The notes beneath the pieces were generated by a model, which ran no database searches, had not been told where the DNA came from, and worked only from the letters and a program-made list of their open reading frames with translations. From an uncultured Oscillospiraceae bacterium (GTDB taxonomy: Bacteria; Bacillota; Clostridia; Oscillospirales; Oscillospiraceae): a stretch of 12,887 bases of DNA. The number at the start of each line of letters is the position of its first letter. Position 1 is the stretch's first letter. The position numbers and the translations under genes are program-made. Below are positions 1-12,887 of the stretch, piece after piece. Location of the stretch: NCBI GenBank assembly GCA_934572355.1, contig CAKTKV010000025.1, positions 1 to 12,887 of the forward strand. Direction: 5' to 3'.

Positions 1-3
1 GTT

Positions 4-402
4 ATGGAACTGCACATTGGAATAACAGGCGTTGACGAAGTCGAGGTCACCCCGGCGAACACTGCCGAGGCTGTCGGCAGCGGCACGCTCCCCGTGTTCG
101 CGACACCCGCCATGCTTGCGTCGATGGAAAAGGCCGCATATACATCAGTGCAGCCCTATCTTGACGAGGGCTGCGGCACGGTCGGCATCCTGCTGAACGC
201 CGAACACCTCGCCGCCTCACCCATCGGGATGCATGTGCGCACCGAGAGCGAGCTTACGGAGATAGACGGGCGCGTCCTCACCTTCTCCGTCCGCTCATAC
301 GCAGGCGGCGAGCTTATCGGGAAAGGTGTCCACAAGCGCTGCATAATAAATTCCGAACGCTTCATAGCAAAGGCGCTCTCAAAGCTCAATAACGAAGAAT
401 AA
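4..402 (+). CDS. Hotdog-fold thioesterase, fluoroacetyl-CoA thioesterase (FlK)-like
   Basis: The 132-residue protein matches the FlK-like branch of hotdog acyl-CoA thioesterases, which hydrolyse small acyl-CoA esters in the cytoplasm, usually as dimers. Visible signatures are VGSGTLPVFATPAM (24-37), MEKAA (41-45), the AEHLAASPIGM block (66-76) and a C-terminal GKGVHKR strand (106-112). Thr34, Glu42 and His68 have the same mutual spacing (8 and 26 residues) as the catalytic Thr42, Glu50 and His76 known for FlK, so the active site looks intact. The start at base 4 suits the family's N-terminus. Only three bases precede it, so the ribosome binding site and promoter lie outside the window and a longer N-terminus cannot be excluded. 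Family members in bacteria that never meet fluoroacetate are common, so the real substrate is unknown and a general acyl-CoA housekeeping role is more likely. The gene ends just before a shared hairpin terminator. Confidence 0.85.
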   Translation: MELHIGITGVDEVEVTPANTAEAVGSGTLPVFATPAMLASMEKAAYTSVQPYLDEGCGTVGILLNAEHLAASPIGMHVRTESELTEIDGRVLTFSVRSYAGGELIGKGVHKRCIINSERFIAKALSKLNNEE

Positions 403-411
403 GCCCAAGGG

Positions 412-453
412 AAACAGCTCCTCCCGGATCATATTGTCCGGGAGGAGCTGTTT
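412..453. terminator. Perfect 17-bp hairpin terminator shared by convergent genes
   Basis: Bases 412-428 are fully complementary to 437-453 around an 8-base loop (429-436). On the + strand the stem is GC-rich in the middle and runs into TTTT (451-454), a normal intrinsic terminator for the thioesterase gene. On the - strand the stem ends in TTT followed by CCC, so termination of the phosphatidyltransferase transcript may be weaker. The - strand gene reads into the hairpin: its TGA stop (431-429) lies in the loop and its last codons form one arm. Confidence 0.85.
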
Positions 454-995
454 TCTGCCTCGTCATTATTTTGTTCACTCCGCTTGAGCAGACGCAGATA
501 TTTTGCCCCATACAGCAGCAGACACATGCATACGAGCGCGGCGCACAGGGCGATACCGCCGTTCATAAGCGCCGCCGGCATATCCGGCCAGAACAGCACT
601 CCCGCCATGACGATATATATCACCGCCGTGCAAAGCTTTCCATACCAGCGCGCGGAGTACACCTTGCCCGTGCATTGCAGCACGCGCGTCCCGAGAGATG
701 CAAGGCTCAGCTCGCGGACGAGGTGCAGCGCCAGCAGCAGCCACGCGGCCTTAGTGCGTGTCGCAGCGCAGAGCATCATCGCGATCTGGATGAGCTTATC
801 CGCCGCCGGGTCAAGCGCCTTGCCGAGGTCGGTCACCATATTGAAGCGGCGGGCGATCGCGCCGTCAAGCACGTCGGACACGGCGCACAGCAGCAGCACG
901 CCCATCGCCTGCCACAGCGCGCCTCTGACATACAGCACCGTGAAAACCGGCGTCAGCAGTATTCTGACTATGCTTATCATGTTAGGTATGTTCAT
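429..995 (-). CDS. pgsA: CDP-alcohol phosphatidyltransferase, phosphatidylglycerophosphate synthase type (PgsA)
   Basis: This is an integral membrane enzyme of 188 residues that probably joins CDP-diacylglycerol to glycerol-3-phosphate, the first committed step to phosphatidylglycerol. The complete family signature D-x2-DG-x2-AR-x8-G-x3-D-x3-D is present, with Asp41, Asp44, Gly45, Ala48, Arg49, Gly58, Asp62 and Asp66. The N-terminus MNIPNMISIVRILLTP is typical of PgsA, and hydrophobic segments fill about 8-38, 67-100 and 122-165. The ATG at 995 is preferred over an in-frame TTG at 1016 because it gives the canonical N-terminus and has a G-run about 8 bases upstream. The C-terminal tail (170-188) is polar, and its codons form one arm of the shared terminator. 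No convincing promoter was found in the 996-1093 interval on this strand. A related CDP-alcohol transferase with another acceptor cannot be excluded. Confidence 0.82.
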   Translation of the reverse strand: MNIPNMISIVRILLTPVFTVLYVRGALWQAMGVLLLCAVSDVLDGAIARRFNMVTDLGKALDPAADKLIQIAMMLCAATRTKAAWLLLALHLVRELSLASLGTRVLQCTGKVYSARWYGKLCTAVIYIVMAGVLFWPDMPAALMNGGIALCAALVCMCLLLYGAKYLRLLKRSEQNNDEAENSSSRTI

Positions 996-1093
996 GCTCT
1001 CAGCCCCCCCGTTCAATTTTTCCCTCTCAATGCGTATCTTATGCAGAGCTGGCGGCGGGCGTGCCGTGTTTTTCCAAAATTTGCGCTGTGCAC

Positions 1094-1122
1094 TTGAAAG
1101 CAGAGCTCGTTTTGCATATAAT
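1094..1122 (+). promoter_or_regulatory. Sigma-A promoter of the serine hydrolase / glycosidase / Lgt-like operon
   Basis: TTGAAA (1094-1099) and a perfect TATAAT (1117-1122) are separated by 17 bases. Transcription should start near 1129, leaving a leader of about 30 bases before the ATG at 1160. The ribosome binding site GGAG is at 1150-1153, six bases from that ATG. The sequence directly downstream is AT-rich. Confidence 0.85.
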
Positions 1123-1159
1123 AGAAAAGATTTTTACCATTTAATTTTTGGAGAGCGCA

Positions 1160-2782
1160 ATGAAGATTCTCAGAAAAGCGATAGCAGTGGCAGCGGTGCT
1201 GACCCTGTGCCTGTCGCTCGGCCTTTCAGCCCTCGCGGACGACGGCGATAACGCGCAGTACAGCGATAAGACATGGGCCCAAGTCGTCAGTCAGCTGCTT
1301 GAGGAGTACAACGTGCCGCGCGAGCAGATCACTGCCGGGTACTGCAATCTCGTCACCGGCGAGGAATACTACGTAAACGGTGATGAATGCAAAATCGCCG
1401 CCAGCATGTACAAACTCCCGCTCAACATGTATTTTACCGACCTTATCCAAAGCGGCCAGTTCGATTGGGACAGCCATTATACCGAAGTCACCTACGAATA
1501 CGCGCGCGACGCCTCCCTTATTTACTCCGACAATGACTGGGCGATGTTCCTGTTTGAAAGCGACGTCATCGGCGGCTTTGAGAAGTTCCGTGAGCTTACC
1601 GCGCCTTTCATGGGCGTTGACTTGAACGACGTCCCGGATGACTATTACCACGTCAATATTTACACCGCCCGCCAGTTCATCACCTGTCTGAAACTGCTGT
1701 ATAACGAGCAGGATCGCTTCCCCGGCATCATCGATACCATGCTGAAGGCCGAGCAGGATCGTTTCTTCAAGCTCAACACGCCGAACTTCGAGGTTGCCCA
1801 TAAGTACGGGTATGTTCCGGAGGATGAACATACGTACATGAATGACTGCGGCATTGCTTTTGCCTCCCAGCCGATCGCCATCGTGATGTTCACCGATAAC
1901 GTTGACAACGCCGAGGAGCTGCTGTCAGCGTACTGCACCGCCATGTGCGAGTATACTAACTACACCGTCGCGAATCCCCCCGCCACGCCGACGCCTGCCG
2001 CACCCGAGGTCACCGCAGCGGCAGAGCCCGAACCCACAGCGGCAGTCGAGCCCGCGCCCGGGTCTTCCGAGACCAAGCCCCCTCTGGCGGCGTTTCTGTT
2101 TATCGCGGCCTTTGCCGCCCTCGGCATATTGGGTGCGGTAAAGCTCAGGAAAAATTACGGCGCGGGACTCAAGCTGATACTGATTGCGCTGCTGCTGTGC
2201 GCGGTCGGGATGCTCCTTGCCGCCGCGGGCAGCTTCTGCGGCACGGTCGTCGCGAAGCCCGCGGGCGATCCTCAGCAGACTGTTGCGGAGTTCTGTGATT
2301 CGCTCATCGCCGGGGACTATACCGCGGCCTACGGCCTGCTTCGCGACCATACCGGCCTCGGCCTTGAGACCGAACCGGCCACCGAAGCCGGGAAAATAGC
2401 GTATAAGGCGCTGCATGACAGCTATAGCTATGAGCTTATAGGCAGCGCCGAGATCGACAAGCTCGACGCAGTGCAGGATATCCGCTTCACCTACCTCTCG
2501 CTTCCCGCGCTTAATGATCCGGTCGCCGAGGAGACACAGACTCAGCTCAAGCACCTCGTGCAGAGCCTGCCGATAAGCGAGGTCTACGATAAAAACAACA
2601 GCTACCGCAAGGAGATCACCGAGCGCGCATATCTTCAAGCGCTTGAACAAGTCTTCGAAAGCGCTGAGGACTACTATACCACAGTCGAAATTTCGCTCGC
2701 CCTCAATTACACAGACGGCAGATGGCAGATCGCGGTGAGCGATGCGCTCCTGAGGGCTCTCAACGGCGGCGCGGGCTATTGA
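1160..2782 (+). CDS. Exported serine hydrolase (class A beta-lactamase-like fold) with two-helix anchor and a C-terminal extracytoplasmic domain
   Basis: The protein has 540 residues. Residues 1-26 are a signal peptide ending in LSALA. The hydrolase domain (about 33-270) carries the three landmarks of penicillin-recognising serine enzymes: S82-M-Y-K85, S123-D-N125 and K215-Y-G217. I see no clear omega-loop glutamate of the class A beta-lactamase type around 145-165, so antibiotic hydrolysis is not implied; a peptidase, esterase or substrate-binding role is possible. A Pro/Ala/Glu/Thr linker (271-307) leads to helices at about 308-327 and 336-357, joined by a basic loop (KLRKNYGAGLK) that is probably cytoplasmic. 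Residues 368-540 form a second outside domain that starts like NTF2/DUF4878-type folds (TVAEFCDSLIAGDYTAAY); this assignment is tentative. An in-frame TTG at 1148 was rejected because it overlaps the binding site and lengthens the signal peptide without need. It is the first gene of a three-gene operon. Confidence 0.82.
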   Translation: MKILRKAIAVAAVLTLCLSLGLSALADDGDNAQYSDKTWAQVVSQLLEEYNVPREQITAGYCNLVTGEEYYVNGDECKIAASMYKLPLNMYFTDLIQSGQFDWDSHYTEVTYEYARDASLIYSDNDWAMFLFESDVIGGFEKFRELTAPFMGVDLNDVPDDYYHVNIYTARQFITCLKLLYNEQDRFPGIIDTMLKAEQDRFFKLNTPNFEVAHKYGYVPEDEHTYMNDCGIAFASQPIAIVMFTDNVDNAEELLSAYCTAMCEYTNYTVANPPATPTPAAPEVTAAAEPEPTAAVEPAPGSSETKPPLAAFLFIAAFAALGILGAVKLRKNYGAGLKLILIALLLCAVGMLLAAAGSFCGTVVAKPAGDPQQTVAEFCDSLIAGDYTAAYGLLRDHTGLGLETEPATEAGKIAYKALHDSYSYELIGSAEIDKLDAVQDIRFTYLSLPALNDPVAEETQTQLKHLVQSLPISEVYDKNNSYRKEITERAYLQALEQVFESAEDYYTTVEISLALNYTDGRWQIAVSDALLRALNGGAGY

Positions 2783-2796
2783 GAGGAGGCGTGTGC

Positions 2797-4209
2797 ATGA
2801 ACGATGATTTTGATCTGAGCGAGCTTGACTCGATACTCGCGGAATTTAGCGGCGACGAGCCTCATGAGGACACCGAGTCTTCTCATTTCACAGGTGAAGA
2901 CACCGAGCTCTCACCTTTCGTCATGGATGAACCCCCGACGCAGCCCGTCCACGAGCCGGAAGCTCCGACGGATGTGCCGGACGAAAAAACTCATTTCTGG
3001 AACAGTCGGGATTTTGCCGCGGCCGCACACCCGGTACACACTCCGGCAAGCGCCGCACCCGACCCGGAGATACCGGACGAGCCCCCGCGCCGCGCGCGGT
3101 TTATCACGCCGCTGTTTGGTCTGCTCTCGGCGCTTATATTGCTGTGGGCGCTCTTCAACATCCATCCCGCCTCCGGTACGCTCTCAAACGCCTCCGGAAG
3201 CAGCAGTATCAATTTATCTGACAAGCTGGATGTATACCTCAATAACGCCGCGAGCGACGCCCTCGGCGAGCTTGCGTACATAAAAAAGATCTACACTCTC
3301 CAGGAGAGCGACACCGTCTCCCCCGTGCCGAACCCGGCAAACTTCGGCGAGACGAATGACCCCGCCGAGATCCGCGAGGTCATCAAGAACGCTGCCGATC
3401 TGCTCGACGGGCAATCCGTCGTTTTCGATGAGAACGCGGACTTTGTCCCGGGCGAGCCGATCCGATATTACCTTGACGAAACCATACTTGTCATCACATG
3501 GAAGGAATATATCAATCAGCGCTGCTGCACCTGTGCCGAGGTCAAGCTCGCGCATGGCTCACAGCTTCGGCGCAAGCTCGCCGACGACAGCTACGGCTCC
3601 AGCGTGCAGCTCTACGCCTCGGATATGGCAAAGCAGTCAAACGCCGTCGTCGCGATAAACGGCGACTTCTATGCCTTCCGCGATCTCGGCATCACCGTGT
3701 ACCAGCGCACGCTCTACCGCAACAGTCCCGCGAAGGTCGACTCCTGCTTCTTCACCTCCACCGGCGACATGCTCTTCACCCGCGCGGGCGAACTCACCGG
3801 CGAGGGCGAGACGCAGAAATTCATTGAGGATAACGACGTTGTCTTTTCTCTCGCCTTCGGCCCCGTGCTTGTGGATAACGGCGAGCTGCAATACTGCGAG
3901 CGCTACCCCATCGGCGAGATAGACACCGAATATTCCCGTTCCTGCATCGGCATGTCGGGCGAGCTGCATTATTTTCTCATGACCATCAACCACACGTCCG
4001 ACGCGCGCCCCCGCGCGACGGTCAATGAGCTTGCGCGCTTCGTCTATTCCAAGGGTGTGCAGAAGGCCTATAACCTTGACGGCGGCCAAACCTCGGAGAT
4101 CATCATGAACGGCGAGCCTATAAATACCGTCGACTTCGGCTCCGAGCGCACCGTCAGCGACATCATATATTTTGCCACCGCGATCCCGAACGAGGAGGCG
4201 AGTAAATGA
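2797..4209 (+). CDS. Membrane-anchored phosphodiester glycosidase family protein (NAGPA/DUF2233 domain)
   Basis: The protein has 470 residues. Residues 1-100 are acidic, proline-rich and probably disordered in the cytoplasm, beginning with a short helix-like DLSELDSILAEFSG (6-19). A basic PRRARF patch (97-102) precedes one membrane helix (about 103-121), which puts the rest outside. The C-terminal part (about 240-465) has the marks of the family of the lysosomal uncovering enzyme, which cleaves sugar-phosphodiester bonds: AINGDFYAFRD (286-296), FGPVLVDNG (354-362), YNLDGGQTSEI (425-435) and a closing RTVSDIIYF (451-459). In bacteria the natural substrates are mostly unknown; exopolysaccharide or wall polymers are usual suspects. 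The ATG at 2797 is chosen over an upstream in-frame codon inside the preceding gene because AGGAGG (2784-2789) stands seven bases ahead. It starts 14 bases after the serine hydrolase gene and overlaps the next gene by ATGA, so all three are probably translated together. Confidence 0.85.
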   Translation: MNDDFDLSELDSILAEFSGDEPHEDTESSHFTGEDTELSPFVMDEPPTQPVHEPEAPTDVPDEKTHFWNSRDFAAAAHPVHTPASAAPDPEIPDEPPRRARFITPLFGLLSALILLWALFNIHPASGTLSNASGSSSINLSDKLDVYLNNAASDALGELAYIKKIYTLQESDTVSPVPNPANFGETNDPAEIREVIKNAADLLDGQSVVFDENADFVPGEPIRYYLDETILVITWKEYINQRCCTCAEVKLAHGSQLRRKLADDSYGSSVQLYASDMAKQSNAVVAINGDFYAFRDLGITVYQRTLYRNSPAKVDSCFFTSTGDMLFTRAGELTGEGETQKFIEDNDVVFSLAFGPVLVDNGELQYCERYPIGEIDTEYSRSCIGMSGELHYFLMTINHTSDARPRATVNELARFVYSKGVQKAYNLDGGQTSEIIMNGEPINTVDFGSERTVSDIIYFATAIPNEEASK

Positions 4210-5216
4210 ACCCCATAGCCATATACAGCGGCTCCACAGTCCTGTACTGGAGCTCGGTCATAATAGTCTTCGGGCTGCTCGCATGCCTCACGCTGTCGCT
4301 GTCCCTGCATCGCGCGAACGGCGGCAGCGATGCCGCGATGCTGCTTTTCTTCCCGCTGGCAATTATCCTTTCTGTGCCCATCTGCCGCGTTATACACTGG
4401 TACTGCCATCTTGAGCAGTATAACGGTATATGGGGCGCGCTGACAGATTACTCCACCGGCAGCTACTGTCTGCCCGGCGCGCTGCTCGGTACGTGGCTTG
4501 CCGCGCTTATCGTAAAGAAGCTTGGCTTTGCGCACAGCACCGCCCGTTTGCTGGATGCCTTTGCTCCGGGGGCGGCGCTCGCCGTCGCATTCATCCGCCT
4601 GAGCGCGCTCTTTAACAGCTCCTGCCGCAGCAAGATCTCCGTGACGACGCCAGCGCTCCAGCACCTGCCCATCGCCTCCGGCGTCACGAGCTCCACGGGT
4701 GCCGTCGAATACCGCTTCGCGACCTTCTTTGTGGAGTTTCTTCTCATGCTCATCGCGGCGGCAGTCCTGCTCGAATTTTTCTATCGCTGCCGTAAACGCC
4801 CGATGAAGTACGGCAGCAGCGACGGGAACACCGCAAGGTACTTCCTGCTGCTCTACAGCGCTGTAGAGCTCCTGTTGGACAGCACCCGCAACGACTCCAG
4901 CTTCATGAAGTTCAATGGCTTTGTCAGCATCGTGCAGATGATCTGCGCGATCTGTATCGCCGCGCTCCTCATATACTATAGCCGCCGCAGCGTAAAGGCC
5001 ATCCGCCTCAGCGCAAAGCACTGGGTGATATGGGGTGCGTGGCTTCTCGGCCTTGCCGGGACGGGCATATCCGAATACCTTGTCCAGCGCCACGGCAACT
5101 GGTACCTCGGCTGCTATGCGTTTATGACGGTCTGCTGCACGCTGATGGCCGCAGCGGTATACCGGATGTACCTGAGCTGCTGTGATGAAACAGCGATAGG
5201 CATTATCGAACAGTAG
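4206..5216 (+). CDS. Divergent prolipoprotein diacylglyceryl transferase (Lgt)-like membrane protein
   Basis: This polytopic membrane protein of 336 residues has about eight or nine hydrophobic segments. Its layout follows Lgt, which moves diacylglyceryl from phosphatidylglycerol to lipoprotein cysteines: YWSSVIIVFGLLA (14-26), a GSYCLPGALLG loop (85-95), LLDAFAPGAALAVAFIR (115-131) with LFN (135-137), and YSAVELLLDSTRND (217-230). Compared by eye with E. coli Lgt, Arg143 corresponds to Arg131 and Tyr235 to Tyr217. His103 appears replaced by Pro90, Arg239 by Glu221 and Glu243 by Asp225. Two further helices (about 273-292 and 300-320) extend the C-terminus. It is therefore probably not the housekeeping Lgt; a different acceptor, a changed reaction or a non-catalytic role are all possible. 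Its start overlaps the preceding stop by four bases, which suggests translational coupling with the glycosidase gene. The residue correspondences come from an eye alignment and need a proper one. Confidence 0.72.
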   Translation: MNPIAIYSGSTVLYWSSVIIVFGLLACLTLSLSLHRANGGSDAAMLLFFPLAIILSVPICRVIHWYCHLEQYNGIWGALTDYSTGSYCLPGALLGTWLAALIVKKLGFAHSTARLLDAFAPGAALAVAFIRLSALFNSSCRSKISVTTPALQHLPIASGVTSSTGAVEYRFATFFVEFLLMLIAAAVLLEFFYRCRKRPMKYGSSDGNTARYFLLLYSAVELLLDSTRNDSSFMKFNGFVSIVQMICAICIAALLIYYSRRSVKAIRLSAKHWVIWGAWLLGLAGTGISEYLVQRHGNWYLGCYAFMTVCCTLMAAAVYRMYLSCCDETAIGIIEQ

Positions 5217-5240
5217 ACGGGTATATCAGCCCCCGTTTTT
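5217..5240 (+). terminator. Short intrinsic terminator at the end of the envelope operon
   Basis: ACGGG (5217-5221) pairs with CCCGT (5232-5236) and is followed by a T-run through 5240. The stem is only five base pairs, so read-through to the stronger hairpin at 5259-5292 is likely. Confidence 0.55.
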
Positions 5241-5258
5241 CATTCATTTGGGCACAAG

Positions 5259-5292
5259 AAAGCCCCGGAAAACCTTGGTTTTCCGGGGCTTT
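5259..5292. terminator. Strong bidirectional terminator between the envelope operon and rpsI
   Basis: Bases 5259-5273 pair perfectly with 5278-5292 around a CTTG loop. On the + strand the stem ends in TTTT; on the - strand it ends in CTTTCTTG. It lies about 30 bases past the rpsI stop codon and is well placed to end the rplM-rpsI transcript, while also catching read-through from the opposite side. Confidence 0.9.
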
Positions 5293-5321
5293 TGAAACAT
5301 TTCGATATGCTGAGCAGCAGA

Positions 5322-5732
5322 TTATCTCTTGCTGAACTGAGGTGCGCGACGTGCGGCTTTGAGACCGTATTTTTTACGTTCCTTCATTCTCGGGTCACGG
5401 GTCAGGAGACCAGCGGCCTTCAGAGGTGCGCGGTAGCTGTCATCGACGAGGAGCAGCGCGCGGGAGATACCGTGACGGATAGCGCCGGCCTGACCGGAAA
5501 CGCCGCCGCCTGCAACGGTAGCTTCGATGTCGACCTTGCCGACAGTGCCGGTGGCGACGAGGGGCTGACGGACGATGAGCTTCAGAGTCTCGAGACCGAA
5601 GTAATCGTCTATATCACGGCCGTTGATGGTGATAGCGCCGGTGCCGTTGGGGATGAGGTGAACGCGGGCAACAGAGGACTTTCTGCGGCCGGTACCGTAC
5701 ATGTAGGGCTTCTTGCACTTATAAGTTGCCAT
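5322..5732 (-). CDS. rpsI: 30S ribosomal protein S9
   Basis: The 136-residue protein is plainly S9 (uS9), which sits in the head of the small subunit and reaches the P-site tRNA with its C-terminal tail. Family marks include [15 protein letters not shown] (12-26), the [14 protein letters not shown] block and a C-terminal [16 protein letters not shown] ending in the basic RAPQFSKR. The start at 5732 has an excellent AGGAGG-type site (complement of 5742-5748) nine bases upstream and gives the usual N-terminus. It lies 16 bases downstream of rplM in the universal rplM-rpsI order and has no promoter of its own in the gap. A strong terminator follows. Confidence 0.98.
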
Positions 5733-5748
5733 ATTCTTTTACCTCCTC

Positions 5749-6177
5749 TTAGCGATCCCAGACTTCGGGCTTCTGGGCTGCATGGGTGTGCTCGCTGCCT
5801 GCGAAGATTCTCAGGCGCTTGAGCTGCCACTGTGCGATGGTGTTCTTCTGCAGCATGCCGCGGACAGCCAGACGCATCGCGAGCTCAGGCTTCTTTGCCA
5901 TCAGGGTCTTGTACTGGGTCTCCTTCAGGCCGCCGGGATAACCGGAGTGGGTACGGTAGTACTTCTGCTCCAGCTTCTTGCCGGTGAGGACAGCGTCCTT
6001 GGCGTTGATGATGATGACATAGTCGCCGCAGTCAACATGAGGAGTATAATCGGTCTTGAGCTTGCCGCGGAGAATATCGGCGGCCAGTGCAGCGGTCTTG
6101 CCCATGGGCTTGCCGGCTGCGTCAAGGATGTACCATTTACGCTCAACGGTCTCCTTGGTCAGCATAGTAGTGGACAT
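5749..6177 (-). CDS. rplM: 50S ribosomal protein L13
   Basis: This is L13 (uL13), an early-assembling protein of the large subunit, 142 residues, which is the standard length. Recognisable blocks are KWYILDAAGKPMGKTA (13-28), DYVIIINAKDAVLTGKK (52-68), YYRTHSGYPGGLKE (73-86) and the C-terminal LKRLRIFAGSEHTHAAQKP. The ATG at 6177 is chosen over an in-frame ATG at 6219 because GGAGG (complement of 6185-6189) stands seven bases ahead and the protein then begins MSTTMLTKETVERKWY, as expected for the family. The upstream ATG would add 14 residues inside the structured leader. It is the first gene of the rplM-rpsI operon. Confidence 0.98.
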   Translation of the reverse strand: MSTTMLTKETVERKWYILDAAGKPMGKTAALAADILRGKLKTDYTPHVDCGDYVIIINAKDAVLTGKKLEQKYYRTHSGYPGGLKETQYKTLMAKKPELAMRLAVRGMLQKNTIAQWQLKRLRIFAGSEHTHAAQKPEVWDR

Positions 6178-6251
6178 GTTCTTGCCTCCATATAAATGAT
6201 AAATGTTTTGACATTTCATGCGCGCGAAAGTACAATATATCCCAAACGCGC
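6178..6251 (-). promoter_or_regulatory. Structured 5' leader of rplM (candidate L13 leader)
   Basis: The predicted transcript starts near 6251, leaving about 74 bases before the rplM start. Two stems are visible on the - strand: GCGCG (6251-6247) with CGCGC (6226-6222), and AAATGT (6216-6211) with ACATTT (6206-6201) around a CAAA loop. The ribosome binding site at 6189-6185 follows directly. Firmicutes are known to carry an L13 leader motif that is thought to allow autoregulation by L13. A match to that motif is inferred from position and structure only. Confidence 0.45.
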
Positions 6252-6257
6252 TTTATC

Positions 6258-6286
6258 TTTATATCACAAGGAGCCGGGCATGTCAA
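6258..6286 (-). promoter_or_regulatory. Sigma-A promoter of rplM-rpsI
   Basis: On the - strand a perfect TTGACA (6286-6281) is followed after 17 bases by TATAAA (6263-6258). This is the closest match to consensus in the window, as expected for a ribosomal protein operon. Transcription should begin near 6251. Confidence 0.9.
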
Positions 6287-6391
6287 CAGTAATTTTGATT
6301 CTGATTTTCAAATCTCGCGAATGCTCCGGAATCCGTCCGAAATCTCTTCAAATCTAAATTCGATTTTTCGTTTTGCTGAAGGAGAAAAACC

Positions 6392-7126
6392 ATGAGAGAC
6401 GCATTGAGTGACTTTACTGGTACCGTCCGCCGCGCCGTGGACGACTACCGCATGATACAGTCGGGTGACCGCGTGGCCGTCGGCGTATCTGGCGGGAAGG
6501 ACAGCATGATCCTCCTCCTCGCGCTGGACTGCCTGAGAAAGTACTATCCGGAGCCGTTCGAGCTCGAGGCGGTGACGATAGAGCTGGGCTTCGAGGGAAT
6601 GGACTTCACGCCCGTGCGCGAGCTGTGCGGGGAGCTCAGCATACCGTACACCTGCGTCAAGACCGATATCAAGGAGATCGTCTTTGACGTGCGCAAGGAG
6701 GACAACCCCTGCTCGCTGTGCGCGAAGATGCGCCGCGGCGCGCTCAATAACGTCCTGCGTGAGCGGGACCTGAATAAGCTCGCGCTCGGCCATCATTTTG
6801 ATGACGCTGTCGAGACCTATATGATGAGTCTGCTGTTTGAAGGGCGCATAAGCTGCTTCCAGCCTGTGACCTTCCTCGACCGCTCCGGTGTTACCCAGAT
6901 ACGCCCGCTCATCTACGCCGGGGAGCAGAAGATAACGAACCTCGCGCGTGAGCTCAATGTGCCGATAGTTGAGAACCCCTGCCCGGATGACAAGGGCAGC
7001 AAGCGCTATGAGATAAAGCAGCTGCTGAAGACCATGAGCGCACAGTACCCGGACATGAAGTCCAAAATATTCGGCGCGATGCAGCGCCTGCCGCTCAAGG
7101 GCTGGGAGCCGGTCGGGAGAAAATAG
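6392..7126 (+). CDS. ttcA: TtcA-family tRNA 2-thiocytidine synthase (PP-loop ATPase)
   Basis: The 244-residue cytoplasmic protein belongs to the PP-loop ATP pyrophosphatases. SGGKDS (33-38) binds ATP, and LGHHFDDAVET (132-142) is the second conserved block. Cys107 and Cys110 (CSLC) with Cys197 (NPCPDDKGSKR) match the three cysteines that hold the iron-sulfur cluster in TtcA, which activates C32 of certain tRNAs by adenylation before sulfur transfer. The lysidine synthase TilS lacks these cysteines, so TtcA is the better call, though another iron-sulfur tRNA thiolase of the group is possible. AAGGAG (6379-6384) lies seven bases before the ATG. The gene is divergent from rplM. I found no convincing promoter in the intergenic part on this strand and no clear terminator after it. 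Confidence 0.85.
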   Translation: MRDALSDFTGTVRRAVDDYRMIQSGDRVAVGVSGGKDSMILLLALDCLRKYYPEPFELEAVTIELGFEGMDFTPVRELCGELSIPYTCVKTDIKEIVFDVRKEDNPCSLCAKMRRGALNNVLRERDLNKLALGHHFDDAVETYMMSLLFEGRISCFQPVTFLDRSGVTQIRPLIYAGEQKITNLARELNVPIVENPCPDDKGSKRYEIKQLLKTMSAQYPDMKSKIFGAMQRLPLKGWEPVGRK

Positions 7127-7144
7127 GCGCGGTATCACGCACTC

Positions 7145-7173
7145 TTGATGTTCTTACTTATCTATGATAGAGT
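7145..7173 (+). promoter_or_regulatory. Weak candidate promoter of the polytopic membrane protein gene
   Basis: TTGATG (7145-7150) and TAGAGT (7168-7173) are 17 bases apart, each matching the consensus at four of six positions, in an AT-rich 79-base gap. An 11-base palindrome TCTATGATAGA (7161-7171) overlaps the -10 element. No terminator separates this gene from ttcA, so read-through is an alternative source of transcript. Confidence 0.3.
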
Positions 7174-7205
7174 ATTTATATGCCAATAGAAAGGAGGCAA
7201 AATAC

Positions 7206-8657
7206 ATGAGCTTCTGCACGGAGAGCTCCGTCTTGAAAAGGCGCATTTTTAAGGCGGTGCTGCTGGTGATAATAGCCGCCGCGTTTGCTCCGTTTGTGAT
7301 CGCGGCAAGATATGCGGTGTTTCAGCCGTCTGATGATTTCTCCTTTTATCTTGGCGTAATGCGGATGCCCGGCGAAAACTATATTGTAAAGGCAATCAGA
7401 TTTGCATTGGAGCTATACCCCTTATGGCAGGGAACGTATACGACTAATCTTCTCAACTGTCTGCTCAATCCGCTTTCCGTTTATAGCTATGCCATGCTGA
7501 GGCTGGAGCTTATAATGTGTCTGCTGCTCTCCTGCCTTGCGATATATCTTCTATGCCGAGAGATGACCGCCTGTTTCTCCCTCGGCGGCAAGACTCTGCC
7601 GATCTTTGCTGTCGTATTTCTGCCCATATTGCTATACACCGATTACAACGAGGTCTATCTCTGGTTCATCGGTGCCATGGCATATCTGGTGCCTATGATG
7701 CTGCTCATATTCGCGTTAGCGCTTATGCTCCGCTGCAAAAGAAAAGGTAAGACCTCGGCGATGATCCTTTCGGCACTGCTCATGCTTGGGATGGCCGGAG
7801 GCGTGCTGATGATCGGCGGCTTAGGCGCATACCTTATGCTTATCATGTGTGCCGCTGACTTCGCACAGAACGGGAAGCTTGACAGAAGGCTGCTGTTCAT
7901 CTTTGCTGCGGCAGTAATCGGCGATCTCATTAACACCTTGGCGCCCGGGAACTTCGTCAGGCACACTTCTTACGGGAGTGCGTCCGTTGTAAAGGCGCTT
8001 GGCATGGCGCTGCTGGGCGCGGCAAATGAAGCAAAAATTTTGATATTTGACAACGGCGTCATCATTTTTCTTGTAATTGCTTTTGCAATGGGGACGAGCT
8101 GTCCGAACAGGCTGCGCCGGACAACATTCTTCGGCACCCTGCTTGGAATGCTGATGGCTCCTGTTGTCACGCTGTTCCCGATGATGCTCGGCTACAATTC
8201 AAGCACTGTTGACGGCGCTTCGCTGCGCGGCTTCTTTGTGCTGGACGCGTCAATAATCCTCTCGGCGGAAACTATCTGCTTCCTTATTGGAAGCAAGGTT
8301 CGTGTGCCAGAGGGAAGCAAAATGCACAGTAAGGTCATTGCCGTATGTGCCGCAGCTGTGCTGACGCTTGTATACTCTCCGAAGCTTGTAAACAGCATTC
8401 CCGTGCAGATATCGGAGAATTTATCGAGTGGGAGGATTCAGGCATACAGCGAGCAGACCCATGAAACGTATGATATGCTCCGTCTGCGTCCCGGAGAGGA
8501 CATTGTCATTGTTGAGCTGCCCGACCCCTGCGTCGGCGTGCTGGAGCTGCGTCTCAAATCGGACCCGAACTATACCACAAATGCTGACGTTGCGGCATAC
8601 TTTGGAAATAACAGTATCTGTGACGGATACTATGCAGCGCATAATCCGCGGGACTGA
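7206..8657 (+). CDS. Polytopic membrane protein, DUF6056 / GT-C glycosyltransferase-like
   Basis: The protein has 483 residues and about ten hydrophobic segments (for example 16-36, 98-117, 131-144, 152-175, 186-217, 228-246, 282-296, 308-328, 345-362, 375-391). After the first helix it has PSDDFSF (41-47); an acidic DD pair in the first outer loop is typical of GT-C-type glycosyltransferases. LAPGNFVRHTS (245-255) recalls the APGN..R motif I associate with DUF6056-like proteins. The C-terminal 85 residues are soluble and probably outside. I place it near that family but cannot name a substrate; a role in surface glycan assembly is inference. The ATG at 7206 has AAGGAGG (7191-7197) eight bases ahead and is preferred over an in-frame start at 7164. 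The gene stands alone between housekeeping genes and appears somewhat richer in A and T than its neighbours, which could reflect separate acquisition. Confidence 0.7.
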   Translation: MSFCTESSVLKRRIFKAVLLVIIAAAFAPFVIAARYAVFQPSDDFSFYLGVMRMPGENYIVKAIRFALELYPLWQGTYTTNLLNCLLNPLSVYSYAMLRLELIMCLLLSCLAIYLLCREMTACFSLGGKTLPIFAVVFLPILLYTDYNEVYLWFIGAMAYLVPMMLLIFALALMLRCKRKGKTSAMILSALLMLGMAGGVLMIGGLGAYLMLIMCAADFAQNGKLDRRLLFIFAAAVIGDLINTLAPGNFVRHTSYGSASVVKALGMALLGAANEAKILIFDNGVIIFLVIAFAMGTSCPNRLRRTTFFGTLLGMLMAPVVTLFPMMLGYNSSTVDGASLRGFFVLDASIILSAETICFLIGSKVRVPEGSKMHSKVIAVCAAAVLTLVYSPKLVNSIPVQISENLSSGRIQAYSEQTHETYDMLRLRPGEDIVIVELPDPCVGVLELRLKSDPNYTTNADVAAYFGNNSICDGYYAAHNPRD

Positions 8658-8691
8658 GCTCCAGCGTCTCCCGGCGGCAGCCGTGATTTCG

Positions 8692-8718
8692 GCTTTGCCG
8701 ATCCCCTGTTGGCAAAGC
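8692..8718. repeat. Inverted repeat covering the -35 element of the rimM promoter
   Basis: GCTTTGCC (8692-8699) pairs with GGCAAAGC (8711-8718) around an 11-base spacer. The right arm holds most of the -35 hexamer (8709-8714). It could be an operator, or a hairpin at the end of the upstream transcript; there is no T-run after it, so it is a poor intrinsic terminator. A smaller hairpin, AGCCG (8679-8683) with CGGCT (8690-8694), overlaps its left arm, so the two cannot form together in RNA. Confidence 0.55.
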
Positions 8719-8737
8719 ACGCGGCGCATGGTATAAT
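8709..8737 (+). promoter_or_regulatory. Sigma-A promoter of rimM-trmD-rsmA
   Basis: TTGGCA (8709-8714) and a perfect TATAAT (8732-8737) are separated by 17 bases. Transcription should start near 8744, giving a leader of about 54 bases before rimM. Both elements are embedded in inverted repeats. Confidence 0.85.
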
Positions 8738-8745
8738 GCTACCAT
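8728..8745. repeat. Inverted repeat spanning the -10 element of the rimM promoter
   Basis: ATGGTA (8728-8733) and TACCAT (8740-8745) form a perfect six-base dyad with a six-base spacer that holds the rest of TATAAT. Its place across the -10 element and the predicted start suits a repressor site. It could also be chance, since arms this short arise easily. Confidence 0.45.
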
Positions 8746-8761
8746 CAGTTAACAACATAAC

Positions 8762-8797
8762 GGAGGAGCGGCGCGGGACGCGCGGCGCATTTGAGAT
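8762..8797 (+). promoter_or_regulatory. rimM leader: distant Shine-Dalgarno followed by a GC-rich hairpin
   Basis: A strong GGAGGAG (8762-8768) lies 29 bases before the rimM ATG, too far for normal use. Between them GCGCG (8771-8775) can pair with CGCGC (8779-8783). Directly before the ATG there is only GAG (8793-8795), too close to act well. An in-frame TGA at 8792-8794 rules out any longer rimM reading frame, and no good start codon lies 5-10 bases past the GGAGGAG. Confidence 0.4.
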
Positions 8798-9286
8798 ATG
8801 GAAAAACATGAATTTATCGACGCGGGACGCATCGTGAACACGCACGGCGTCGCGGGCGAGGTAAAGATAGAGGTCTGGCTGGATTCGCCGAAGTTCTTCC
8901 GGAGCTTCAAGCGCATATACCTTGGCGAGCGGGAAATGAAGGTCGTCTCCGCAAGGACGCATAAGGACTTTGTTATCGCAAAGCTCGATGGCATTGACGA
9001 TATAAACGCTGCGATGGCGCTCAAGGGGCGCGAGGTCACCGTCCGCCGCGAGGACGCGGCGCTGCCGCACGGGGCGTTCTTCCTTCAGGACATCCTCGGC
9101 GCGCGCGTTGTCGACGAGAGCGGGAACGAGATAGGCGAGCTTGTCGAGATAATGGAGCGCCCAGCGTCTAACGTGTATGTCGTAAAGGGCGAGACAGAAC
9201 ACCTCATCCCTGCCGTGCCGGAGTTTGTGCTGGCGACGGACGCAGAGAACGGCGTCATAACCGTAAGGCTCATCGAGGGGATGTAA
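8798..9286 (+). CDS. rimM: Ribosome maturation factor RimM
   Basis: The 162-residue protein is RimM, which binds S19 in the head of the 30S subunit and helps late 16S rRNA processing. The N-terminal barrel starts with AGRIVNTHGVAGEVKIE (9-25), where GRI and THG-GEVK are family hallmarks. The central GREVTV (77-82) and the C-terminal PRC-like domain with FFLQDILGARVVDE (94-107) and HLIPAVPEFV (134-143) complete it. The length is normal. The start cannot be moved upstream because of the TGA at 8792-8794. It is the first gene of a close-packed operon: trmD begins three bases after its stop, the usual partnership of the family. Unlike the common order in Firmicutes, rpsP and a KH-domain gene are not upstream. 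Confidence 0.96.
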   Translation: MEKHEFIDAGRIVNTHGVAGEVKIEVWLDSPKFFRSFKRIYLGEREMKVVSARTHKDFVIAKLDGIDDINAAMALKGREVTVRREDAALPHGAFFLQDILGARVVDESGNEIGELVEIMERPASNVYVVKGETEHLIPAVPEFVLATDAENGVITVRLIEGM

Positions 9287-9289
9287 GGC

Positions 9290-10582
9290 ATGCGCATAGA
9301 TATAATGACGCTTTTCCCCGCAACGGTCGACGCGGTACTCCATGAGAGCATCATAGGCCGCGCGGCGAAGAAAGGCATAGTTGAAATAAACTGCGTGCAG
9401 ATACGCGACTATACCGAGAACAAGCAGAACCAGGTGGACGACTACCCCTACGGCGGCGGCTTCGGCTGCGTGATGATGGCGCAGCCGCTCAAGAGCTGCC
9501 TCGATGCGATAAAGGCGCAGACAGAAGGCATGCGCCGCCGCGTGATATACATGTCCCCGCAGGGCAAGCCCTACACGCAGGAGACGGCAAAGCGCCTCAA
9601 GCGCGATTACGATCATCTTGTACTCGTCTGCGGGCATTATGAGGGTGTGGACGAGCGCTTCATCGAGGAGTGCGTCGATGAGGAGATATCCCTTGGCGAC
9701 TTTGTCCTCACCGGCGGCGAGATCGCGGCGATGGCCGTGGCCGATTCGGTGTGCCGCCTTGTGCCGGGAGTGCTTGCCGATGAGCAGTGCTACACCGGCG
9801 AGAGCCACTGGGACGGGCTGCTGGAGTACCCGCAGTATACGCGCCCGGAGGTCTGGGAAGGGCGCGCCGTGCCGGAGGTGCTGCTGAACGGAGATCACAG
9901 CCGGGTAGAGCTGTGGCGCCGGCGGCAGCAGCTTGAGAGAACAAAGGAGAAAAGACCGGATATGTACGAAAAATTCGAGCCGCAGGACGAGACGGACAGA
10001 AAGCTCATGAAGGACGTCGAACGCAGCGACGGGCGCATAAAGCTCACGGAAAAGCTTCAGTGCGTCCCGGCGGAAAAAGAGGACGTCGACCGCATTATGG
10101 AGATCGTCGCCTACGCGCGCAGGTCACTCAGGGCGCTGAACGTCGACCAGTGGCAGGGCGATTACCCCGACAGGGCGACCTTCGAGGGCGACATCGAGCG
10201 CGGAGAGCTCTATAAGCTCATGCACGGGGACGACCTTGCGGGCTTCTTCATGCTCTCCGACCGCGAGGAGCCGACCTATGCCGACATCACCGACGGCAAG
10301 TGGAGCTCCGACGCACCCTACTGCGTCATGCACCGCAGCGCGATAGCCGAGGAGTATCGCGGCAGCGGCATGTCGGGCTACCTTATCAAATGTGTTGAGG
10401 AGCTGACGCGCAGCCACGGGCGGCGCTATGTCAGGATCGACACGCACCGCAATAACAAGCCCATGCAGAAGCTGCTGCGCAGCAGCGGCTACCGTTACCG
10501 GGGAAATATCCTCATCACCGGCGAGCCGGGACACGACCCGCACCGGCAGGCCTTTGAAAAAATACTGAAGGACAAGAAATGA
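9290..10582 (+). CDS. trmD: TrmD tRNA (guanine37-N1)-methyltransferase fused to a C-terminal GNAT acetyltransferase domain
   Basis: The reading frame has 430 residues, while TrmD normally has about 240-250. Residues 1-225 are a complete TrmD, which methylates G37 of tRNAs that have G36, using S-adenosylmethionine in a trefoil knot: YGGGFGCVM (54-62), MSPQGKPY (88-95), CGHYEGVDERF (114-124), SLGDFVLTGGE (134-144) and WDGLLEYPQYTRPEVW (174-189) with likely catalytic Asp175. Residues about 251-430 form a GNAT domain with the acetyl-CoA loop YRGSGMSGYL (356-365), preceded by a beta-strand CVMHRSAI (345-352) and followed by RIDTHRNNKPMQKLLRSSGY (382-401). The junction is in one uninterrupted frame. 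Internal initiation is possible: AGGAG at 9945-9949 is 12 bases before an in-frame ATG at 9962 (Met225). The stop overlaps rsmA by ATGA. The acetyl acceptor is unknown. Confidence 0.92.
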   Translation: MRIDIMTLFPATVDAVLHESIIGRAAKKGIVEINCVQIRDYTENKQNQVDDYPYGGGFGCVMMAQPLKSCLDAIKAQTEGMRRRVIYMSPQGKPYTQETAKRLKRDYDHLVLVCGHYEGVDERFIEECVDEEISLGDFVLTGGEIAAMAVADSVCRLVPGVLADEQCYTGESHWDGLLEYPQYTRPEVWEGRAVPEVLLNGDHSRVELWRRRQQLERTKEKRPDMYEKFEPQDETDRKLMKDVERSDGRIKLTEKLQCVPAEKEDVDRIMEIVAYARRSLRALNVDQWQGDYPDRATFEGDIERGELYKLMHGDDLAGFFMLSDREEPTYADITDGKWSSDAPYCVMHRSAIAEEYRGSGMSGYLIKCVEELTRSHGRRYVRIDTHRNNKPMQKLLRSSGYRYRGNILITGEPGHDPHRQAFEKILKDKK

Positions 10583-11451
10583 ATCTTCTGACGGACATCA
10601 ATTATATACATGACCTGCTCGCGCGGCACGGCTTCCGCTTTTCAAAGTCGCTCGGGCAGAACTTCCTCACGGCCTCATGGGTGCCGGAGGACATCGCCGA
10701 GTCCGCGCTGCTCGATGAGAACACCGGCGTGCTGGAGATCGGCGCGGGCGTCGGCTGCCTCACGCGTGAGCTTTCGGCGAGAGCAGGAAAGGTAGTGTGC
10801 GTCGAGCTTGACCGCGCGCTCGAGCCTATCCTTGCCGAAACGCTCATTGGCTGCAAAAATGTTGAGATGGTCTACGGTGATATTCTCAAGCAGGATATCC
10901 CGGCGCTCGTCGCGGAAAAGCTCAATGGGCTGCGCCCCGTGGTGTGCGCAAACCTGCCGTATAATGTCACCTCGCCGCTTCTCACGGCGCTTATCGAGGC
11001 CGGCTGCTTTGAGAGCATCACGGTCATGATCCAGCGCGAGGTCGCGCGGCGTATCTGCTCAAAGCCCGGCACGGCGGACTACGGCGCGTTCGGCATCTTC
11101 GTGCAATGGTACGAGGAACCGGAGCTGCTGTTCGATGTGCCGCCGTCCTGCTTCGTCCCGCAGCCGAAGGTGACCTCGAGCGTCATCCGCCTGAGAAGGC
11201 GCGGAGAGCACCCAGCCGAGGTCATGGATGAAAAGCTCATGTTCCGCATCATCCGCGCCGCCTTCAACCAGAGACGCAAGACTCTTGTAAACGCGATAAG
11301 CTCGCAGTTGGGCGAAATCACCAAAGAACAGGCCGAGCGCGCGCTCACGGAATGTGGATACGATACGCGGATCCGCGGAGAAGTGTTGGATATTAGTGGT
11401 TTTGCGAAAATCTCAGATAAAATATTGGCTATAATAAATGCAGATTTGTGA
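10579..11451 (+). CDS. rsmA: 16S rRNA (adenine1518-N6/adenine1519-N6)-dimethyltransferase RsmA (KsgA)
   Basis: The 290-residue enzyme adds four methyl groups to the two adjacent adenines of helix 45 in 16S rRNA during 30S assembly. Visible motifs are the RNA-binding KSLGQNFL (23-30), the S-adenosylmethionine loop EIGAGVG (53-59), ELD (76-78), the catalytic NLPY (125-128), FVPQPKVTSSV (192-202) and FNQRRKTLVN (229-238). The length is normal for Firmicutes. Its ATG overlaps the trmD stop by four bases, so translation is probably coupled. Its place after rimM and trmD groups three RNA-maturation steps in one transcript. No intrinsic terminator is visible before the ppdK promoter. Confidence 0.97.
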   Translation: MNLLTDINYIHDLLARHGFRFSKSLGQNFLTASWVPEDIAESALLDENTGVLEIGAGVGCLTRELSARAGKVVCVELDRALEPILAETLIGCKNVEMVYGDILKQDIPALVAEKLNGLRPVVCANLPYNVTSPLLTALIEAGCFESITVMIQREVARRICSKPGTADYGAFGIFVQWYEEPELLFDVPPSCFVPQPKVTSSVIRLRRRGEHPAEVMDEKLMFRIIRAAFNQRRKTLVNAISSQLGEITKEQAERALTECGYDTRIRGEVLDISGFAKISDKILAIINADL

Positions 11452-11461
11452 TTAAAATCTA

Positions 11462-11491
11462 TTGAAAAAATGGCGCTTTATGTGATATCCT
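11462..11491 (+). promoter_or_regulatory. Candidate promoter of ppdK
   Basis: TTGAAA (11462-11467) and TATCCT (11486-11491) are 18 bases apart. The -35 is good and the -10 matches four of six positions. The start would be near 11498, at the base of a leader hairpin. A perfect TATAAT at 11430-11435, inside the end of rsmA, lacks a clear -35 but is a possible alternative. Confidence 0.5.
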
Positions 11492-11494
11492 AAG

Positions 11495-11516
11495 GAGTGC
11501 AGAAGATACTGCATTC
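11495..11516 (+). promoter_or_regulatory. Stem-loop at the 5' end of the ppdK leader
   Basis: GAGTGCAG pairs with CTGCATTC (eight pairs, one of them G-T) around an AAGATA loop. If transcription starts where predicted, this lies at the extreme 5' end of the mRNA, where such stems often stabilise transcripts. It is followed by an AT-rich stretch to the ribosome binding site AAAGGA (11549-11554), eight bases before the ATG. Confidence 0.4.
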
Positions 11517-11562
11517 ACCGTTATCTGCCAAATCTTAATTTACCATAGAAAGGATAAAAAAG

Positions 11563-12887
11563 ATGAGCAAGAAATACGTTTACCTGTTTTCCGAGGGCAA
11601 CGCAAACATGCGTGAGCTGCTGGGCGGCAAGGGTGCAAACCTGGCCGAGATGACCAATATCGGTCTGCCTGTCCCCCAGGGCTTCACCATCACCACCGAA
11701 GCCTGCACCCAGTACTATGAGGACGGCCGTCAGATCAATGATGAGATCATGGCTGAGATCATGCAGTACGTCGCAAAGATGGAGGAAATGAACGGCAAGA
11801 AGTTCGGCGACCTCCAGAACCCCATGCTCGTCTCCGTGCGTTCCGGCGCCCGCGCCTCCATGCCCGGCATGATGGACACTATCCTGAACCTCGGCCTGAA
11901 TGACGACGTCGTCGCCGCCATGATCAAGGGCAACCCCGATCCCAAGTTTGAGCGTTTCGTTTACGACTCCTACCGCCGCTTCATCCAGATGTTCTCCGAC
12001 GTCGTTATGGAAGTCGGCAAGAAGTACTTCGAGCAGCTCATCGACAAGATGAAGGCCGAGAAGGGCGTCACCTCCGACCTCGAGCTCGATGCTTCCGACC
12101 TCAAGAAGCTCGCTGAGCAGTTCAAGGCAGAGTACAAGAAGCAGATCGGCGAGGACTTCCCCTCCGACCCGAAGGTCCAGCTCTACGAAGCTATCCGTGC
12201 GGTCTTCCGTTCTTGGGACAACCCCAGAGCAAACGTCTACCGCCGCGACAACGATATCCCCTACTCTTGGGGCACCGCTGTCAACGTCATGCCCATGGTG
12301 TTCGGCAATCTCAATGAGAACTCCGGCACCGGCGTCGCATTCACCCGTGACCCCGCCACCGGCGAGAAGAAGCTCATGGGCGAGTTCCTCGTCAATGCAC
12401 AGGGCGAAGACGTCGTCGCCGGCGTCCGCACTCCTATGCCCATCGCTCAGATGGCAGAGCAGTTCCCCGAAGCATACGCTGACTTCGTCAAGGTCTGCGG
12501 CATCCTCGAGGAGCACTACCGCGACATGCAGGACATGGAGTTCACCGTCGAGAACGGCAAGCTCTACATGCTCCAGTGCCGAAACGGTAAGCGTACCGCT
12601 CAGGCCGCTCTCAAGATCGCATGCGACCTCGTTGACGAGGGCATGATCGATGAGAAGAAGGCCGTTCTGATGATTGACCCGAGAAACCTCGACACTCTGC
12701 TCCACCCGCAGTTCGACACCGCCGCTCTCAAGGCTGCTACTCCCATCGGCAAGGGCCTTGGCGCATCCCCCGGCGCTGCATGCGGCAAGATCGTCTTCTC
12801 CGCTGAAGACGCCAAGGAATGGGCCGCCCGCAAGGAGAAGGTCGTTCTCGTCCGTCTCGAGACCAGCCCCGAGGATATCGAAGGCAT
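11563..12887 (+). CDS. ppdK: Pyruvate phosphate dikinase, N-terminal 441 residues (cut by the window end)
   Basis: PPDK interconverts ATP, phosphate and pyruvate with AMP, pyrophosphate and phosphoenolpyruvate; in many anaerobes it serves glycolysis and saves pyrophosphate energy. The visible part holds the nucleotide-binding region: LLGGKGANLAEM (19-30), GLPVPQGFTIT (34-44), SVRSGARASMPGMMDTILNLG (from 91), RRFIQMFSDVVM (138-149), GTGVAFTRDPATGEK (255-269) and GEFLVNAQGEDVVAG (273-287). MLQCRNGKRTAQAA (336-349) has Cys339 where Thr is usual. The mobile phosphohistidine domain begins at about 395 (GKGLGASPGAACGKI) and the frame is open at Glu440-Gly441, before the catalytic histidine, so the enzyme's completeness cannot be judged. 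Codon choice (CTC, ATC, AAG, CGT) looks that of a highly expressed gene. AAAGGA stands eight bases before the ATG. Confidence 0.97.
   Translation, partial: MSKKYVYLFSEGNANMRELLGGKGANLAEMTNIGLPVPQGFTITTEACTQYYEDGRQINDEIMAEIMQYVAKMEEMNGKKFGDLQNPMLVSVRSGARASMPGMMDTILNLGLNDDVVAAMIKGNPDPKFERFVYDSYRRFIQMFSDVVMEVGKKYFEQLIDKMKAEKGVTSDLELDASDLKKLAEQFKAEYKKQIGEDFPSDPKVQLYEAIRAVFRSWDNPRANVYRRDNDIPYSWGTAVNVMPMVFGNLNENSGTGVAFTRDPATGEKKLMGEFLVNAQGEDVVAGVRTPMPIAQMAEQFPEAYADFVKVCGILEEHYRDMQDMEFTVENGKLYMLQCRNGKRTAQAALKIACDLVDEGMIDEKKAVLMIDPRNLDTLLHPQFDTAALKAATPIGKGLGASPGAACGKIVFSAEDAKEWAARKEKVVLVRLETSPEDIEG

Follow-up and report, generated by a model that had tools for sequence, protein, structure and literature searches.

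Does the joining of an essential tRNA methyltransferase to an acetyltransferase in one reading frame reflect a shared task, or are two enzymes simply made together? This question is raised by a locus in an uncultured Oscillospiraceae bacterium (assembly GCA_934572355.1, contig CAKTKV010000025.1, positions 1 to 12,887), and this whole stretch of 12,887 nucleotides is termed the window. Positions 9290-10582 of its + strand form a single open frame, running from ATG to TGA and encoding 430 amino acid residues. The protein matches tRNA_m1G_MT (PF01746) at residues 23-223 (E 1.8e-59, above the cut-off) and Acetyltransf_1 (PF00583) at residues 282-401 (E 8.8e-7, 29.7 bits against a cut-off of 20.7). 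Residues 1-237 score 298.1 bits with the TrmD model TIGR00088 (cut-off 195), and the TrmD part scores 307.1 bits with PRK00026 (cut-off 220). The original prediction of a TrmD fused in frame to a GNAT acetyltransferase is therefore borne out, although the extra part, put at about 180 residues, measures about 190. The features of the locus are as follows.

8798..9286, + strand: rimM, directly upstream, with 3 bases from its stop to the trmD start (RimM match PF01782 and open frame).
9290..9973, + strand: TrmD domain, residues 1-228, with the SAM knot and the C-terminal tRNA-binding part (PF01746, TIGR00088 and alignment to solved TrmDs).
9755..9757, + strand: Arg156, equivalent by alignment to catalytic Arg154 of H. 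influenzae TrmD.
9800..9802, + strand: Glu171, aligned at the position of catalytic Asp169, the proton acceptor from G37.
9974..10054, + strand: linker, residues 229-255, with a predicted helix at 234-247; poorly conserved (46% mean identity over 229-258).
10055..10579, + strand: GNAT acetyltransferase domain, residues 256-430 (curated GNAT model above cut-off and GNAT fold).
10331..10336, + strand: His348-Arg349, family signature, each kept in 97 of 99 distinct fused proteins and common to stand-alone relatives.
10355..10378, + strand: YRGSGMSG, residues 356-363, predicted acetyl-CoA pyrophosphate loop, read from the sequence and lying inside the PF00583 match.
10439..10447, + strand: Asp384-Thr385-His386 (DTH), family signature, kept in 96, 97 and 98 of 99 distinct fused proteins, respectively.
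10493..10564, + strand: C-terminal beta hairpin, residues 402-425, with predicted strands and R404, N406, G414, H415, D416 and Q420; here the larger fused group differs from stand-alone relatives.
10579..11451, + strand: ksgA, whose start overlaps the fusion stop (ATGA) (PF00398, E 4.2e-54).

An in-frame junction of this kind could be produced by a missed stop codon, a frameshift or a chimeric contig, and some of the database entries that contain this GNAT indeed seem to be chimeric, for example P0139, in which the start of RRF (PF01765) is joined to it on a 1600-base contig. Such an artefact is extremely improbable here, and is ruled out by relatives from many separate assemblies with the same in-frame architecture. 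A protein search with the GNAT half returned 539 proteins; among the 120 listed, PF01746 is present in all 120 and PF00583 also in 119. The two that carry a name from their source (P0027 and P0033) are both called plain TrmD. When a GNAT alignment was used to scan a genome collection, 360 relatives were obtained, and of the best 80 of these, 78 run through the junction in frame without a stop, so that the conserved stop near 9990-10020 that had been named as the refuting result is absent from fused relatives. Of the other two, L076 has a run of N at the TrmD/GNAT junction, and L023 changes frame near the beginning of its GNAT part. The record titles of these 80 loci give Oscillospiraceae, Ruminococcaceae, Clostridiales, Eubacteriales and Clostridia, with one Lachnospiraceae (L062) and one "uncultured bacterium" (L008). 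Moreover, the GNAT part is under purifying selection, with dN below dS in all 30 pairs listed out of the 1486 with dS < 1, which also argues against an artefact.

It was also considered whether the GNAT part might be made as a free protein from an internal start. In the window, AAAGGAG lies 12 bases upstream of Met225. However, a strong site-plus-start combination occurs in 16 of 102 sequences (window included, three pairs identical) compared to 14.5 +/- 3.0 in synonymous shuffles, and 79 of 200 shuffles reach the observed 16. Such combinations are thus no commoner than in the shuffles, and a free GNAT from an internal start was rejected.

The fusion is found in a clade whose members are represented here by metagenomes, and many of these come from animal guts. 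In a set of 120 genomes from one family, 22 match P0001 over its full length among the matches listed, and 5 have no match at all. At the order level, the corresponding numbers are 5 and 18 of 295, again among the matches listed; G384 and G397 belong to this set of 5 and were absent from the first draw. At the class level, 92 of 99 genomes have a TrmD match and 7 have none. Since full-length matches are few and the other genomes mostly have a stand-alone TrmD (the listed separate GNAT matches being 31-42% identical), the fusion seems to be characteristic of a single clade. Each of the 8 genomes searched has one PF01746 match, which lies in the fused gene. This means that, in the Oscillospiraceae clade, a drug-target enzyme is present only as a two-domain protein in 8 of the 8 genomes checked; the available text of PMC10962704 and PMC7641325 presents TrmD as a drug target that is essential in most bacteria.

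Both halves appear to be competent enzymes. In the TrmD half, the position of catalytic Arg154 is Arg in all 99 distinct fused proteins. The position of Asp169 is occupied by Glu in all 97 fused TrmDs that were parsed, in 28 of the 29 unfused ones, and also in all 30 class-level loci read (the best 30 of the 92 genomes with a match). Glu at this position is therefore not special to the fusion, and inactivation of TrmD through the change from Asp169 to Glu is unlikely. The N-terminal half would be expected to methylate G37 of tRNA.

In the GNAT half, the loop that binds acetyl-CoA commonly follows the motif R/Q-x-x-G-x-G/A. The window has R357-G-S-G-M-S362, with Ser at the G/A position, and the loop proposed in the original prediction appears to be real and conserved among fused relatives: in 99 distinct fused proteins, Arg357 is kept in 95, Gly358 in 93 and Gly360 in 78, and position 362 is Ala in 53 or Ser in 44. 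In addition, 21 signature positions are common to fused GNATs and stand-alone relatives (a comparison that leaves out L096, L023 and three duplicates), and every one of the checked positions is retained in 96 to 98 of the same 99 proteins. A structure model of the window GNAT preserves the acetyl-CoA fold. The C-terminal half would thus be an acetyl-CoA-dependent GNAT of the 2PC1 family, and its acceptor is most likely to be an amine on a small molecule or a protein. A literature search on this family yielded solved structures and no function. A model of the full-length protein (pTM 0.56) does not fix the relative placement of the domains, and its TrmD part differs from solved TrmDs by about 12 Å rmsd over the full domain.

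Losses of two or more signature positions are few. L096 has lost 11 of the 15 checked positions and has no Pfam GNAT match, while L108 has lost three, L098 two, and L023 those affected by its frame change. From its sequence, the fused protein of L096 (585-1811) may be a pseudo-acetyltransferase. That a domain is retained in this state is consistent with a GNAT whose main role is structural or in binding tRNA, and whose acetylation is incidental or lost, and the available text of PMC11187310 reports that Tm1570 adds little activity towards tRNA in TrmD-Tm1570. This is improbable in view of the near-complete retention of the checked positions and of the acetyl-CoA fold that the window model predicts.

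Acetylation of a ribosomal protein had also been suggested. That the GNAT does this in the place of RimI, the ribosomal protein S18 N-acetyltransferase, is unlikely. The window GNAT stays far below the cut-off of the RimI model TIGR01575 (16.4 bits against 86.4), and a separate RimI above the cut-off is encoded in 27 of 28 fused genomes searched and in 11 of 12 unfused ones. The GNAT is therefore not a RimI stand-in, and this candidate was rejected. A known tRNA acetyltransferase, the tRNA-Met cytidine acetyltransferase TmcA, has helicase-like and tRNA-binding domains beside its GNAT domain. At E 0.001, Pfam finds only PF01746 and PF00583 in the window protein, so that domains of the TmcA type are absent, as is PF09936. 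A further case, V. cholerae AcpA, is described in the available text of PMC10962704 as the acacp3U acetyltransferase.

Gene order suggests how the fusion arose. L081 has separate genes in the order rimM-trmD-panK-GNAT-ksgA, with a TrmD of 257 residues ending in TAA and a GNAT of 192 residues; panK here denotes a Fumble-family (PF03630) kinase. In L094, L111 and L115, the fused trmD:GNAT is followed by panK, and in L099 and most others of L099-L118 it is followed by ksgA. L089 has rimM-trmD-panK-ksgA without a GNAT, and among the matches listed at E 0.001 no GNAT is found elsewhere in its genome. Because the order of panK and GNAT differs between L081 and L094, L111 and L115, the fusion was not the plain loss of one stop codon. 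L081 is likely to represent the older, pre-fusion state. A GNAT gene in the rimM-trmD-(panK)-ksgA region would have been joined to the end of trmD near the base of the Oscillospiraceae clade, probably once.

The trees make a single origin likely but not secure. A quick TrmD tree of 70 rows comprised the window, every row of L081-L140 with 240 residues or more, and 18 loci out of the first 80 (from 19 picked by hand, L076 was dropped because of its short length). It places all 41 fused rows in one set of 43 together with L081 and L089 (SH-aLRT 100), with L081 at the base. L089 is nested among fused rows with weak support, and is therefore read as a loss of the GNAT. A careful GNAT tree with 55 rows separates the fused rows, together with L081 and the stand-alone L090, from 23 stand-alone rows (89/90). 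Constraining the fused domains to one clade is not rejected (AU p 0.385), but the fused rows form one group in 0 of 200 bootstrap trees because L090 falls among them. In a quick GNAT tree of 73 rows, L081 lies among stand-alone rows and the fused label has to change 4 times, with starred branches requiring 3 of these changes. Both GNAT trees were built without L096 and some stand-alone rows, and the careful tree also without the long rows L088 and P0234.

The genes beside stand-alone relatives give a mixed clue to the acceptor. Neighbors were surveyed in one set of 7 loci and in 38 of 39 loci of another (L179 has no GNAT match), with one member of each neighbor type verified by Pfam; counts in the 38-locus set are lower bounds, because antisense frames hid some GNAT genes. 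NAPRTase adjoins the GNAT in at least 4 of 38 loci (L142, L143, L148 and L151), isochorismatase-like genes in at least 3 (L148, L151 and L155) and beta-eliminating lyases in at least 2, the same two as L095 and L097 of the 7-locus set. A pyridoxal-kinase-like gene is found in L082, panK in L081, and a MiaB-like gene (Radical_SAM, UPF0004 and TRAM; divergent to the GNAT) in L091. The MiaB family acts on A37. The neighbors are thus mostly not tRNA genes. As a separate observation, the nicotinate phosphoribosyltransferase and/or isochorismatase-like genes in L142, L143, L148, L151 and L155 are perhaps parts of an NAD salvage operon with an acetyltransferase.

The C-terminus of TrmD also takes other partners. 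In the same bacterial family, TrmD is fused in frame to a Peptidase_M29 aminopeptidase in proteins of 654-658 residues (L121:494-2455, L128:829-2802 and L134:161-2134). This is likewise a C-terminal fusion, but its partner of about 400 residues (PF02073) is unrelated to GNAT. In the available text of PMC11187310, Calditerrivibrio nitroreducens has a TrmD-Tm1570 fusion (PF01746-PF09936, PDB 8B1N), which resembles the present one in carrying a second enzyme domain on the TrmD C-terminus and in having partners that also exist as separate, sometimes adjacent, genes. Its partner is a second SPOUT methyltransferase, whereas the acetyltransferase joined to TrmD here has an unrelated fold. The TrmD C-terminus thus accepts varied, unrelated partners. 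This variety, together with the non-tRNA neighbors, modestly favors two enzymes on one chain, probably joined once and kept mainly for co-expression, over action on tRNA or in translation and over a structural role. Persistence would then come mainly from fixed co-expression with an essential gene, and of the options raised for this locus co-expression fits best.

Alternatively, the GNAT may act on the substrate or surroundings of TrmD, namely an anticodon-region nucleoside, the amino acid carried by a charged tRNA, or a protein involved in translation, with the tether bringing it to the tRNA held by the dimer. This is unlikely. The GNAT is attached to the C-terminal part of TrmD, which, according to the available text of a review, carries residues acting on G37, and the stand-alone relative L091 adjoins the MiaB-like gene. 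Moreover, compared to stand-alone relatives, the larger fused group has six conserved places of the hairpin changed (CG to RGN, and GHDPxRQ), and is more basic, with a mean net charge per 100 residues of +0.76 (n 93, rows that include duplicates and the frame-changed L023 and, being related, are not independent) against -2.04 (n 67). The new hairpin and the basic shift could mean a new TrmD-linked acceptor, which counts against the co-expression reading. However, the shift is one lineage's event: the value is -1.2 for the window GNAT and -2.9 for 8 early-branching fused domains, so that charge is a weak sign of RNA binding. The other neighbors listed above also weigh against action on tRNA or translation, as do the losses of the signature in L096 and partly in L108 and the absence of the domain from L089; the GNAT reaction is therefore dispensable in places. 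A more specific proposal, in which the tethered GNAT acetylates TrmD-held tRNA, either on a nucleoside of the anticodon loop or on the amino acid attached to it, and one protein thereby links m1G37 with an undescribed acetyl mark and with the acetyl-CoA level of the cell, is quite doubtful.

In the literature searched, with most subscription papers outside its reach, no account was found of a TrmD that is fused to an acetyltransferase. The available text of a 2007 survey of SPOUT architectures names a TrmD-COG4752 fusion without the word acetyltransferase. The stand-alone GNATs of the 2PC1 family (Streptococcus agalactiae NP_688560 and, more distantly, 3H4Q and 2FIA) are separate genes of about 170 residues, and lack the changed hairpin of the larger fused group. 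The fusion offers a direct handle on this family, in which one half can be disabled and the change observed. Should its acceptor be a tRNA or a protein of translation, this would amount to a new modification.

Other long frames were seen in passing. Class-level TrmD frames above 380 residues occur in G002 and in G478, G420, G481, G416, G074, G425 and G485. In G425 (C125:2402-3208) and G485 (C69:16316-17233), the TrmD match falls in two pieces within one long frame (618 and 568 residues), which suggests that the TrmD sequence is interrupted by an insertion near model position 77. Elsewhere in the window, the frames at 1148-2782 and 2722-4209 match the Beta-lactamase2 family (PF13354) and phosphodiester glycosidase (PF09992), respectively.
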